A stretch of 7,551 bases of DNA, taken from NCBI GenBank assembly GCA_016209155.1, contig JACQWU010000084.1, positions 1 through 7,551 of the forward strand, read 5' to 3'. Positions 1 to 6,747 of the stretch are shown here, piece after piece; within the stretch, counting starts at the first letter, position 1; each line of letters opens with the position of its first letter. The stretch comes from Candidatus Desantisiibacteriota bacterium. GTDB taxonomy: Bacteria; JACRDZ01. The notes beneath the pieces were generated by a model that worked only from the letters and a program-made list of their open reading frames with translations, was not told the DNA's origin and ran no database searches. A program made the position numbers and the translations under genes.

Positions 1-669
1 AATTTTGACGCTCATAACATTAAGTGGGAAAAAAGAGACATATTTATTATCAGCAAGGGGCATGGTTCAATTTCGTTTTACCCTATACTTGCGGATTTTG
101 GCTATTTTAATAAACATGAGCTGAGCAGGGTATGTAAAGAAGGTTCGTTCCTGGGCGGAATACCTGATCCTTTAATACCCGGATATGAGACGATGAATGG
201 TTCGCTGGGACATGGTCTGGGAGTAGCATGCGGTATTGCGCTGGCATTAAAAAAGAAAAAAAGGAAAGAAAGGGTTTTTGTGCTTATCGGTGATGGCGAG
301 TTATACGAAGGATCTGTATGGGAAGCTGTTATGTTTGCCGGTGAGCATAAACTGGACAACCTGATATTGATAATTGATAACAATAAAATCTGCATGCTTG
401 ATTTTTGTAAAAAAATTTTGGACATAGAACCTCTTGATGAGAAATTTAAAGTACATAAATGGACAGTTTCAAGAGTTAACGGTCATGATGTAGAAAAGTT
501 GTATAACTCTTTAGTAATACTGACAAAAGATAAAAGAAAAGAACCGAAAGTATTGATAGCAGATACAACCAAGGGCAAGGGAGTTAAGAGTCTTGAGAAA
601 GATTCCTTATGCCATATCAGGAGCTTAAAAGAAGAAGAGATAGATTTAATAATATCGGAGTTAAAATGA
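1..669 (+). CDS. Transketolase N-terminal subunit (5' partial)
   Basis: Thiamine-diphosphate (ThDP) binding half of a split transketolase, which moves two-carbon ketol units between sugar phosphates with its partner half. The reading frame is open from base 1, so the start lies outside the window; by family comparison roughly the first 50-60 residues are missing. Counting from base 1, the SKGHG motif at residues 19-23 carries the conserved His of the active site. GDG at 97-99 begins the ThDP/Mg motif, which closes at Asn128 (IDNN). Y-E-G at 102-104 and W-E-A follow the usual transketolase pattern. The frame stops at TGA 667-669 without any C-terminal domain, and the next gene starts inside this stop (ATGA), which fits a two-subunit enzyme. 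An A-rich stretch near 250-270 encodes a Lys/Arg cluster. Split transketolases occur in pentose phosphate metabolism and in specialised pathways; the substrate cannot be read from this sequence. Confidence 0.93.
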   Translation, partial: NFDAHNIKWEKRDIFIISKGHGSISFYPILADFGYFNKHELSRVCKEGSFLGGIPDPLIPGYETMNGSLGHGLGVACGIALALKKKKRKERVFVLIGDGELYEGSVWEAVMFAGEHKLDNLILIIDNNKICMLDFCKKILDIEPLDEKFKVHKWTVSRVNGHDVEKLYNSLVILTKDKRKEPKVLIADTTKGKGVKSLEKDSLCHIRSLKEEEIDLIISELK

Positions 670-1631
670 AGATTGAAAATAAAAAAGTAATGAGAGATGT
701 ATTAATTGAAAATATTTGTAACCGTATGCATGAAGATAAAAGTTTATTCTTTTTAACTGCTGATTTTGGAGCCCCGAAACTGGATAAACTAAAGGAAGAT
801 TTTAAAGACAGGTTTATAAATGTAGGTATTGCCGAGCAGAATTTAATAAATGTTTCAACCGGTTTAGCTTTAGAGGGTTTTACCGTGTATGCATACGCTA
901 TTGCTCCTTTTATTACAATGAGGGCATATGAACAGGTCCGAAATAATCTTTCACTATTATCGCAAATAAAAGAGATCAATATAAATATGATAGGTGTGGG
1001 TGCAGGTTTAAGCTACGATGTTTCAGGCCCGACTCATCACTGTCTGGAAGATATCAGCATAATGAGAACATTGCCCAATATTGATGTTTTTTCTCCGAGT
1101 GATTGGATGCTTGCCGGGAAATTTTTGGATTATTCGATAAAAGTAAAAAGGCCGAAATATATTAGATTAGACAGCAAGCCGCTGCCCCGAATTTATGAAG
1201 AAACAATGAATTTAGATTTGCAAAAAGGATTCTATGAGCTGGCAAAAGGAGAAAAAGTGTGTTTTGTTTCTACCGGATATGTGACACATACTGCTATAAA
1301 AGTAGTAAATAATTTAAAAAAAATCAATACTAATATCGGACTCATTGATATGTTTTTACTTAAACCATTCAATGAAGATTTATTTTATAAAACATTGAGT
1401 AAATATAATTGTATTATAACCATTGAAGAGGCATTCATCAATAAAGGCGGATTGGACAGCCTGGTTTCTATTGTACTCGAAAACAGGAATTCAAAAATAA
1501 AATTAAAAAGAATGGGATTTGAAGATAAACATGTTTTTGAAATGGGCGGCAGGGAACATCTGCATAGAATAAACGGCTTAGACGAAGAAACTATTGCTAA
1601 AAAAGTTAGAGATATACTAAAGGAAATATAA
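666..1631 (+). CDS. Transketolase C-terminal subunit
   Basis: Second half of the split transketolase, 321 residues, holding the pyrimidine-binding domain and the C-terminal domain. The GIAEQN motif carries the Glu that activates the ThDP aminopyrimidine ring. GPTHH-LED and YIRLD follow in the usual order, and the C-terminal domain shows STGYVTH, TIEEA and a GG-L glycine turn. I chose ATG 666 because it overlaps the upstream stop as ATGA, has GGAG at 657-660 five bases before it, and gives the normal family N-terminus. An in-frame ATG at 609 would only add residues read from within the upstream gene. The coupling implies equimolar synthesis with the N-terminal subunit. Stop TAA 1629-1631 overlaps the next start. 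The sequence is also related to the C-terminal part of DXP synthase, but the two-gene arrangement and the partner's motifs favour transketolase. Confidence 0.93.
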   Translation: MKIENKKVMRDVLIENICNRMHEDKSLFFLTADFGAPKLDKLKEDFKDRFINVGIAEQNLINVSTGLALEGFTVYAYAIAPFITMRAYEQVRNNLSLLSQIKEININMIGVGAGLSYDVSGPTHHCLEDISIMRTLPNIDVFSPSDWMLAGKFLDYSIKVKRPKYIRLDSKPLPRIYEETMNLDLQKGFYELAKGEKVCFVSTGYVTHTAIKVVNNLKKINTNIGLIDMFLLKPFNEDLFYKTLSKYNCIITIEEAFINKGGLDSLVSIVLENRNSKIKLKRMGFEDKHVFEMGGREHLHRINGLDEETIAKKVRDILKEI

Positions 1632-2884
1632 TGAATGGGAGAATCGATATTGTATTAGTTAATCCCGGTGACAGGAAACAGATCTATAAGGATTTAGATA
1701 AAGATTATTCAGCTATTGAACCCCCCTTTTGGATTGCAGTAATTGCGGCTTTTTTGAGGAATAATAAATTTAATGTGGTAATTCTGGATTCCAACGCTGA
1801 AAATATTTCACCTGATGAAACCGCTGAGAAAATAAATCAGATTAATCCGTTATTATCGGCAGTAATAGTCTATGGTTCTCAGCCGTCTGCGTCAACACAC
1901 AATATGACAATTGCAGGGAAAATTTGTAAAGCAATAAAAAAAAATACTTCTGTAAAGGTAGCGATCGGAGGTCTTCATCCGTCAGCATTGCCTGAAAGAA
2001 CAATAAAAGAAGAAAGCGTGGATTTCGTAATAGAGGGAGAGGGTCCCTTTACATTAAAAAATCTCCTCGAAGTATTAAGGTCTGAAGGAAATGATTATTC
2101 CGGTATCAGGGGTTTATGGTATCGCGAAAATAATATTATTTTAAATAATCCGAGAGCGCCTCTTATAAACAATCTTGATGAAGGTCTGCCTATTGCTGCA
2201 TGGGATTTGCTTCCGATGAAAAAATATAAGGCGCATAACTGGCATTGTTTTGATGATATTGAAAATAGAATGCCGTATGGAGCTGTTTATACGAGCCTGG
2301 GATGCCCTTATTCCTGTGTTTTTTGCTGTATTAATGCGCCGTTCGGTAAACCCGGTATACGTTATAGAAGTCCTGAACTGGTTGTTGAAGAAATAGGAAT
2401 ATTAGTAACTAAATACGGGATAAAAAATATTAAAATTGTTGATGAGTTGTTTGTTTTAAGCCAGAAGCATTATATGACAATAGTTGATTTATTGCTTAAG
2501 AAAAATTATGACCTGAATTTTTGGGTATATGCAAGGGTGGATACTATAAAATTTGAAAATTTAACGAAAATGAAAAAAGCCGGGATTAACTGGATTGCAT
2601 TGGGTATTGAAACAGCAAATCCGGAGGTAAGAGACGGCGCGGAAAAAAGAATGAGAGTTAAGGATATTAAAAATGTTGTGCGTGAAATACAAAATGCAGG
2701 TATCAGTGTAATAGGTAATTATATTTTCGGTTTACCTGAAGACAATTTAAATACAATGCAGGAAACTCTTGACATGGCAATGGATCTAAACTGTGAGTTT
2801 GCTAACTTTTATTGCGCTATGGCATATCCGGGATCAAAGCTTTATGATATAGCTATAAGAGAGGGCTGGCAGCTCCCGAAATAA
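1631..2884 (+). CDS. B12-binding-like radical SAM protein, C-terminus truncated
   Basis: Radical SAM enzyme of 417 residues with an N-terminal cobalamin-binding-like domain (about 1-150; PPFWIAVIAAFLR, IGGLHP, EGEGP). No DxHxxG motif is visible, so any cobalamin would be bound without the lower His ligand. The radical SAM core begins near residue 220; the cluster motif CPYSCVFC supplies Cys225, Cys229 and Cys232. The start is ATG 1631, overlapping the upstream TAA by one base, with AAGGA about 6 bases before it, so it is translated as the third gene of the transketolase operon. The protein ends at EGWQLPK. From memory, relatives continue with W-S-G-Y-SQ and then some 50 or more further residues, so the 3' end appears to be lost where the sequence switches to the converging gene. 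The reaction is unknown; relatives include methyltransferases and other C-C chemistry enzymes, and a sugar or lipid modification would fit the neighbours. Activity after truncation is uncertain because the SAM core is nearly complete. Confidence 0.85.
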   Translation: MNGRIDIVLVNPGDRKQIYKDLDKDYSAIEPPFWIAVIAAFLRNNKFNVVILDSNAENISPDETAEKINQINPLLSAVIVYGSQPSASTHNMTIAGKICKAIKKNTSVKVAIGGLHPSALPERTIKEESVDFVIEGEGPFTLKNLLEVLRSEGNDYSGIRGLWYRENNIILNNPRAPLINNLDEGLPIAAWDLLPMKKYKAHNWHCFDDIENRMPYGAVYTSLGCPYSCVFCCINAPFGKPGIRYRSPELVVEEIGILVTKYGIKNIKIVDELFVLSQKHYMTIVDLLLKKNYDLNFWVYARVDTIKFENLTKMKKAGINWIALGIETANPEVRDGAEKRMRVKDIKNVVREIQNAGISVIGNYIFGLPEDNLNTMQETLDMAMDLNCEFANFYCAMAYPGSKLYDIAIREGWQLPK

Positions 2885-3805
2885 AAATGTTTTTTCGATA
2901 GAGATTTCAGGCTCCCAGCCTGTTTCTTTTTTAAATTTATCTGTGCAGGGTATTTGCAACGTTACATCAGAAGGTCTCATTAATGCAGGATCTATTTTAA
3001 TTTCAAATTTGGTTTTGGAAAATGATAATAATATATCCAGAGATTCACCGATTGTCATTGTTCTATTGCCGCCTATATTATATACATCGCCATGTTTTCC
3101 TTTTTGGACCATTATCCAGTATGCCCTGACAGCATCTCTTACATCGCAGAATGTGCGGACGGATTTTAAGTTTCCGACTCTGATTATAGAACTTGTGAGT
3201 CCTAATTCTCCGGATGCAACCTGCTTTGCAAAAAAAGACATGGCAAATACGTCACCCCGGCGCGGTCCGGTATGCGTGAACATTCTTGTGCGGATTGTTT
3301 TCATTCCGTATGACAGCCAATACTGCAATGCAACCATATCCTCGCCTACTTTACTAACAGCATAGGGGGAAGCCGGTCTGAAAGGACAGGTTTCTTTGAT
3401 AGGTACATCTGCTTCAGTAACCTGTCCATATACTTCTGATGATGAGCATATATGAATTATAGGATCTATTTCTAATATTCTGACTGCTTCAAGCAAATTC
3501 GTTGTTCCGATAACATTTGTCCATAATGTATGAATAGGGGAATTAAAGCTTGTTAAAACATAACTTTGTGCTGCTAAATGGAAAATAACATCCGGTTTTA
3601 CAGCTTTAAAATGTCTGATTAATGCGCTCAAATCACAAAGGTCTGCATCAAGGAGAGAGATCTTATTGTAAATTTTTTCAAGATTATCTTTAGGGCTTCT
3701 CCACCTGCATAGACCATAGATGTCATGACCTTCATTTAAATTTAAAATGTATTCTGCAAGATGACTTCCAACAAATCCTGTCACACCTGTAATCAATACT
3801 TTCAC
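2834..3805 (-). CDS. NAD(P)-dependent sugar epimerase/dehydratase, GDP-mannose 4,6-dehydratase-like, altered C-terminus
   Basis: Extended SDR enzyme acting on a nucleotide sugar, 323 residues from the chosen start. The Rossmann motif is G7-V-T-G10-F-V-G13. SSSEVYG at 121-127 holds the catalytic Ser/Glu region, and Y148-A-V-S-K152 is the Tyr-Lys pair. RPSD at 277-280 followed by a K-E-T-G-W helix is typical of GDP-mannose dehydratases and GDP-4-keto-6-deoxymannose reductases. I chose GTG 3805 over ATG 3820: GGAGG lies 8 bases before the GTG, no Shine-Dalgarno precedes the ATG, and the GTG gives the family N-terminus (M-K-V-L-I-T-G). The gene begins 20 bases after the nucleotidyltransferase stop, forming an operon. 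Residues 308-323 (after SIEKTF) do not resemble the family and are read antisense through the radical SAM gene, so the normal last 10-20 residues are missing. Loss of this short helix may not abolish activity. Dehydratase versus reductase or epimerase cannot be decided here. Confidence 0.88.
   Translation of the reverse strand: MKVLITGVTGFVGSHLAEYILNLNEGHDIYGLCRWRSPKDNLEKIYNKISLLDADLCDLSALIRHFKAVKPDVIFHLAAQSYVLTSFNSPIHTLWTNVIGTTNLLEAVRILEIDPIIHICSSSEVYGQVTEADVPIKETCPFRPASPYAVSKVGEDMVALQYWLSYGMKTIRTRMFTHTGPRRGDVFAMSFFAKQVASGELGLTSSIIRVGNLKSVRTFCDVRDAVRAYWIMVQKGKHGDVYNIGGNRTMTIGESLDILLSFSKTKFEIKIDPALMRPSDVTLQIPCTDKFKKETGWEPEISIEKTFLFRELPALSYSYIIKL
2864..2920. repeat. Imperfect inverted repeat over the convergent joint
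   Basis: The left arm is 2864-2882 (GGCTGGCAGCTCCCGAAAT) and the right arm is 2904-2920 (ATTTCAGGCTCCCAGCC). The reverse complement of the right arm matches the left arm apart from two substitutions and a two-base gap. The 21-base spacer contains A-runs and T-runs that can pair further (CGAAA...TTTCG). On the plus strand the right arm is followed by TGTTTCTTTTTT, so it could act as a terminator for the left operon. Both arms lie within coding codons (G-W-Q and G-W-E), so chance similarity is possible. Confidence 0.5.
2879..2887. other. Putative rearrangement or chimera joint
   Basis: Both flanking genes lose family resemblance here. The plus-strand radical SAM gene ends after codon 2879-2881 (Lys) at TAA 2882-2884. 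The minus-strand SDR is family-like through the Phe codon at 2887-2885, then runs antisense into the radical SAM gene. Normal convergent genes would each have their own C-terminus and some spacer. The joint lies in the A-rich tract AAATAAAAA, so a few bases could belong to either side. Confidence 0.6.
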
Positions 3806-3818
3806 AAAGTTATCCTCC
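3803..3818 (-). promoter_or_regulatory. Shine-Dalgarno deciding the GTG start of the SDR gene
   Basis: Reading the minus strand, GGAGGA (3818-3813) is followed by TAACTTT and then GTG (3805-3803). The gap from GGAGG to GTG is 8 bases. The upstream in-frame ATG (3820-3818) has only an A/T run before it and itself overlaps this site, so it is the less likely start. Confidence 0.75.
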
Positions 3819-3825
3819 ATATTTT

Positions 3826-4545
3826 TTATTTTTTAAAGTTTTCTGCAATAATAATATCTTCCGGTGAATTTACATTTATATATTTATCACTAATAATAAA
3901 TGATTTTACAACTTTTCCATCATCAATAGCGCATTGCAGTAAATCAGGGAATTCTTTTTCTTTTCTTATATGATGTATTGGTGTGAAATCAATATAATTA
4001 AATATTTCATTTTTAAATATACAATTACCCGTACCCATATAATTATTAAGCGGATTATGCGGTTTTTCCACCAGTCTATATATTGTATTTTCATTATCCT
4101 GAACAAGTGTATAAGTTTTTTTTATTAAATTTTTGTCATCAACCCATAAAATACCGCATATTGCAAATATATCATTTTTTTTAAACTCATTGATCATTTC
4201 CTGATGTTTTGAGTTAACTGATATTTCATCTCCGAGTAATAGTAAAAAATCATCCCCTGAAATAGTCTCTTTAGCGCATTCCATTGCATGAACAAGACCT
4301 CTCTGCTCAGGTTGAATAACATATTTCAGCCTTTTATTCTTATATTTAATGCCATAGGTATTAATTATCTCCTCAGCCCTGTATCCGACCACAATAATGA
4401 TTTCATTAATATCAGTATTTGAAGCATAGTCAAGACTATTTTCAATAAGAGGTCTGCCGTTTACCATAATCATGCATTTATTTTTTGAGCTGGAAAGCTC
4501 ATCGAGCCTTTTACCTCTGCCGCCTGCCAGAATTAATGCTTTCAT
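3826..4545 (-). CDS. Sugar-1-phosphate nucleotidyltransferase
   Basis: GT-A fold NTP-transferase, 239 residues, joining a sugar-1-phosphate to a nucleoside triphosphate to give an NDP-sugar and pyrophosphate. The N-terminal LAGGRGKRL signature (residues 6-14) binds the NTP phosphates, and Lys23 corresponds to the conserved signature Lys. GDE at 105-107 supplies the metal-binding Asp106. EKP at 160-162 and GTGNCIF at 171-177 are the sugar-site elements, and NVNSPEDI near 225-232 is the closing motif. At 239 residues it is a single catalytic domain without the left-handed beta-helix of GlmU-type enzymes. The start ATG 4545 has AAGGAGA six bases upstream. It is the first gene of the minus-strand operon, downstream of a good promoter, and is followed after 20 bases by a GDP-mannose-dehydratase-like gene. 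Supplying GDP-mannose would be logical, but glucose-1-phosphate or another sugar phosphate is equally possible from the motifs alone. Confidence 0.88.
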   Translation of the reverse strand: MKALILAGGRGKRLDELSSSKNKCMIMVNGRPLIENSLDYASNTDINEIIIVVGYRAEEIINTYGIKYKNKRLKYVIQPEQRGLVHAMECAKETISGDDFLLLLGDEISVNSKHQEMINEFKKNDIFAICGILWVDDKNLIKKTYTLVQDNENTIYRLVEKPHNPLNNYMGTGNCIFKNEIFNYIDFTPIHHIRKEKEFPDLLQCAIDDGKVVKSFIISDKYINVNSPEDIIIAENFKK

Positions 4546-6670: not shown

Positions 6671-6747
6671 ACCACAGAGGCACACAGACACAGAGAAAGA
6701 AAAAAAATTATTATAATTATTACTCTGTGCCTCAGTGTCTCTGTGGT
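6671..6747. repeat. Hairpin-forming inverted repeat, possible bidirectional terminator
   Basis: Two 25-base arms, 6671-6695 (beginning ACCACAGAGGCAC) and 6723-6747 (ending GTCTCTGTGGT), are complementary at 21 of 25 positions, with one further G-T wobble. The loop of 27 bases is almost pure A/T. The 3' arm is followed by a run of A on the plus strand, and the 5' arm is preceded by ATTTA, so it lacks a clear U-tract for plus-strand termination. The ACCACAGAG...CTCTGTGGT type is familiar as a dispersed intergenic repeat in various bacteria. It lies 19 bases after the htpG stop and could insulate or stabilise the htpG mRNA. Confidence 0.8.

Follow-up and report, generated by a model that had tools for sequence, protein, structure and literature searches.

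The window, the whole stretch of DNA analysed here, is the complete contig C44 (7,551 bases) of a draft genome of 3.08 Mb in 352 contigs that is estimated to be 78.8% complete. On the forward strand, a split transketolase and a gene for a B12-binding radical SAM protein form a cassette that meets an SDR gene on the reverse strand, the radical SAM and SDR genes both belonging to sugar pathways; a sugar-nucleotide transferase gene stands behind the SDR gene (Table 1). Further along the contig htpG was found on the forward strand, and after it a second radical SAM gene of which the contig holds the start. A strong imperfect palindrome (ACCACAGAGGCACA... / ...CTCTGTGGT) lies 3' of htpG at positions 6671-6747. 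It has a DNA fold z-score of -5.4, and a further copy of one arm was found on contig C346 (L137:1600-1612). It is probably a dispersed intergenic repeat or a terminator.

Table 1. Features around the meeting point of the radical SAM and SDR genes (window coordinates)
Feature	Position	Strand	Remarks
Transketolase N-terminal half (tktN)	1..669	+	5' part lost at contig start; upstream member of the tktN-tktC-radical SAM cassette
Transketolase C-terminal half (tktC)	666..1631	+	
B12-binding radical SAM gene	1631..2884	+	417 aa; C-terminus EGWQLPK; 3'-truncated
Inverted join	2879..2885	no strand	
SDR open reading frame, overall	2834-3820	-	328 aa
SDR, native part (GDP-mannose 4,6-dehydratase-like, PF16363)	2885..3820	-	Last ~11-16 residues missing
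Spurious extension of the SDR frame, 16 codons + stop	2834..2884	-	Antisense to the radical SAM gene
Sugar-nucleotide transferase (PF00483)	3826..4545	-	Same direction as SDR

Truncation of the two genes and the site of the join

The radical SAM protein contains a B12-binding domain (PF02310, residues 29-145) followed by a radical SAM domain (PF04055, residues 221-382), both complete in Pfam. The first-pass annotation, which stated that relatives continue for tens of residues past EGWQLPK, was borne out. When the protein was aligned to close homologues it ended early, and all nine relatives (47-76% protein identity over residues 1-417) ran 71-83 residues beyond its last codon, with the additional C-terminal tail strongly conserved in each. 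Compared in codon register with five relatives, DNA identity was 67-79% (32-38 of 48 nucleotides) through base 2881 and 25-33% (6-8 of 24), as expected by chance, from base 2882. Judged from these alignments, the gene is cut and the part lost is the conserved C-terminal tail of ~73 residues. Its stop codon, TAA, is contributed by the sequence across the join.

The SDR is covered by PF16363 (GDP_Man_Dehyd; profile 1-327 of 332, E 1.5e-76). Its score fell under the cut-off of the TIGR01472 gmd model, and it is described here as GDP-mannose 4,6-dehydratase-like with no exact enzyme assigned. Up to about SIEKTF it is matched by 11 homologues taken from whole genomes (37-53% identity), and all of these then continue past this point; only one of the 11 alignments extends to the end of the window's reading frame. 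The C-terminal end of nine of the 11 is a D-x-L/V-x-Y-W helix, given in the first-pass annotation as D-L-L-x-Y-W, and the window SDR lacks it. After SIEKTF it reads LFRELPALSYSYIIKL, a stretch of 16 residues whose codons lie antisense to those of the radical SAM gene, in agreement with the positions given at first pass. The hexamer coding score, which is +0.24 to +0.59 per codon in the preceding windows, falls to -0.44 in this tail. Neither truncated gene has a frameshift or an internal stop.

The SDR keeps its family likeness as far as 2885; should the codons TTA-TTT be native, the limit moves to 2879 (the SDR of the relative L054 reads T-L-D-F-L-L at this position). As the identity of the radical SAM gene ends at 2881, the alignments confine the join to about 2879-2885. 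Both reading frames thus depart from their families at a single point, as had been claimed, with a spacing of about 0-6 bases rather than the 8 first estimated. Microhomology of 0-6 nt at the join is possible and is allowed by the A/T-rich bases. No suitable inverted repeat or recombination site was found at 2879-2885, and there was no recombinase or transposase among the genes of the contig identified by Pfam or NCBIfam. No mobile element was found at the join either. A repeat-mediated inversion was rejected, as suitable repeats were lacking and the join region had no second copy in the genome. The GC content is even across the join (0.350 vs 0.341) and htpG, to its right, matches the same phylum (65%), so both halves of the contig may belong to this genome.

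In L054, whose radical SAM protein is 76% identical to that of the window, a single strand carries tktN-tktC-radical SAM-GHMP kinase-nucleotidyltransferase-oxidoreductase-glycosyltransferase-SDR, and the SDR gene lies about 4 kb downstream of the radical SAM gene, its start being about 3.7 kb from the stop codon of the latter. Unlike the window, L054, L057 and L050 have a complete radical SAM gene followed by co-directional genes, with no convergent SDR. A convergent SDR adjoining the radical SAM gene was found in none of the relatives examined, among which the sequences of L049 and L051 extend only a short way past that gene. The relatives were also searched for the same C-termini, which at first pass had been named with the arrangement as marks of a native border, and every C-terminus was different and longer. 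Because the two genes of L054 lie on the same strand, the window is read as an inverted join that came with a deletion of what lay between them. Relative to L054 the window SDR appears inverted and fused, with the DNA between missing, though this is a comparison with a single relative whose SDR is only 50% identical and it shows the type of rearrangement, not the exact source distance. The alignments confirmed a non-native inverted join, and the earlier proposal that a head-to-head join removed both 3' ends is supported, both proteins being shortened relative to their homologues.

Search for the lost tail and for other joins

The missing 3' end of the radical SAM gene was sought in the same assembly, as the first-pass annotation had proposed. 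A query with the tail of the L054 protein gave no match even at E 10, while it detected the tail in two more distant control genomes with E values of 5e-19 and 3e-18. With the same probe and its positive controls, no reciprocal join was found elsewhere in the assembly. As the assembly is 78.8% complete, the tail could lie in the unassembled fifth.

Convergent gene pairs were surveyed in a sample of 102 contigs, of which 94 (about 855 kb) were readable; the eight unreadable ones included C46, C136, C191, C221 and C226 (<3 kb, 0% GC, N). The median gap in the 69 convergent pairs found was +29 b. The radical SAM/SDR overlap of 51 b was the second largest, and only one other pair overlapped by at least 30 b (2/69 in all). 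Six overlaps, that of the window included, were of at least 15 b. The other five showed no clear double truncation in Pfam, several of the proteins having no or only partial matches.

A second join was detected separately, as the gene piece involved was too short for the overlap survey. The GHMP kinase gene, which in L054 comes directly behind radical SAM, sits in the genome under study on contig C214, where a fragment of purF meets a shortened glycosyltransferase gene head-on at about position 550 (L067 375-960). The purF fragment is 57 codons long and covers no more than positions 1-57 of 432; C227 carries the gene in full. The first 530 bases of C214 have a GC content of 43.6%, a value reached by about 2% of the 530-base stretches in the sample, and the rest 30.7%. 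The C214 join is probably a chimera, and it possibly includes DNA of another organism.

Origin of the join

The absence of the radical SAM tail from the assembly and the second truncating join on C214 favour an artefact. We infer, with a probability of roughly 0.64, that the join in the window is a chimera made in vitro or in silico, during amplification or assembly, rather than in the cell. The strand carrying the two transketolase halves and the radical SAM gene would have been joined inside the radical SAM gene at about 2881. Its partner would be the opposite strand, carrying the nucleotidyltransferase and SDR genes and joined inside the last codons of the SDR. During amplification or library making, a displaced 3' end may have paired with a neighbouring displaced strand through a few complementary A/T bases and primed synthesis there; alternatively, an assembler may have followed a wrong edge. 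Either route would join the segments in inverted orientation and lose the DNA between them, and the shortened C-termini and the antisense end of the SDR would be by-products without function.

Of the chimeras formed in multiple displacement amplification (MDA), 85% are inverted, and most join sequences that lie <10 kb apart and lose the DNA between them, usually at a few complementary bases; the inverted form with deletion, under 10 kb, made up 337 of 475 (Lasken and Stockwell 2007, PMC1855051). This anatomy fits the join in the window well. Segments in opposite orientation, a sharp join and A/T bases permitting microhomology are shared, and, going by L054 only, a few kb probably separated the two segments in the source. 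Counting against MDA, no record of methods points to such amplification of the sample, and long inverted repeats within a contig, a sign of MDA hairpins, were missing from the sampled contigs, which held only short ones of 28 b or less. Chimeras of short-read metagenome assembly also share features with this genome, namely a fragmented draft (352 contigs) and, on C214, a truncating join with a step in composition. They often form at repeats shared between genomes, and no repeat was found at the join in the window. An assembler error would give the same consensus as an MDA chimera.

A recent deletion-inversion in the cell would likewise give an identical consensus. Surface-polysaccharide clusters are often rearranged, and a real, recent inversion or deletion-inversion in such a cluster could have cut both genes and left remnants that keep their core domains. 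We consider this possible, though less likely than an artefact. It is consistent with the agreement of GC and gene content on both sides of the join and with the gene order around the cassette, which varies among the relatives, and in a genome only 79% complete, failure to find the tail does not settle the matter. However, a balanced inversion requires a reciprocal join that carries the radical SAM tail; no such join was found, and the one in the window is free of transposases, repeats and recombination sites. Neither truncated gene has decayed, and C214 provides a second truncating join in the same assembly. The choice between artefact and genomic rearrangement, left open at first pass, is narrowed towards an artefact by the absent tail and the C214 join.

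Readings in which the short proteins are functional fare much worse. The gene border could be native, the short C-termini natural and the 16 antisense codons a functional end of the SDR, and the core domains are indeed complete (radical SAM to 165/166 of its profile, GDP_Man_Dehyd to 327/332). The tail is, however, kept in 9/9 radical SAM relatives, 11/11 SDR homologues differ beyond SIEKTF, DNA identity breaks at a single base (2881/2882) and none of the relatives examined has the arrangement. A native border is thus very improbable, and was rejected on the C-termini of the relatives and the identity break. Slightly more improbable still is a genuine deletion-inversion in this lineage whose products, a radical SAM enzyme short of its conserved tail and an SDR with a new, antisense-coded C-terminus, are both still expressed and working.

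The join is most likely an ordinary defect of a draft genome, with no new biology or mechanism. The convergent radical SAM/SDR pairing and the short C-termini should not be taken as biology, and inferences about gene neighbourhoods and C-termini drawn from contigs C44 and C214 are untrustworthy. Convergent genes that overlap by tens of bases offer a cheap flag for such joins.

The cassette in other genomes

In L049, L051, L054 and L057 the order and strand of tktN, tktC and the radical SAM gene are the same as in the window, and the radical SAM proteins are 67-76% identical to that of the window. The cassette is one of surface-sugar clusters. The split transketolase and radical SAM cassette is common to MAGs of several phyla at about 70% identity, and the records that carry it are titled Omnitrophota, Planctomycetes, Deltaproteobacteria and Arcobacter. 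The cassette looks to have spread horizontally.
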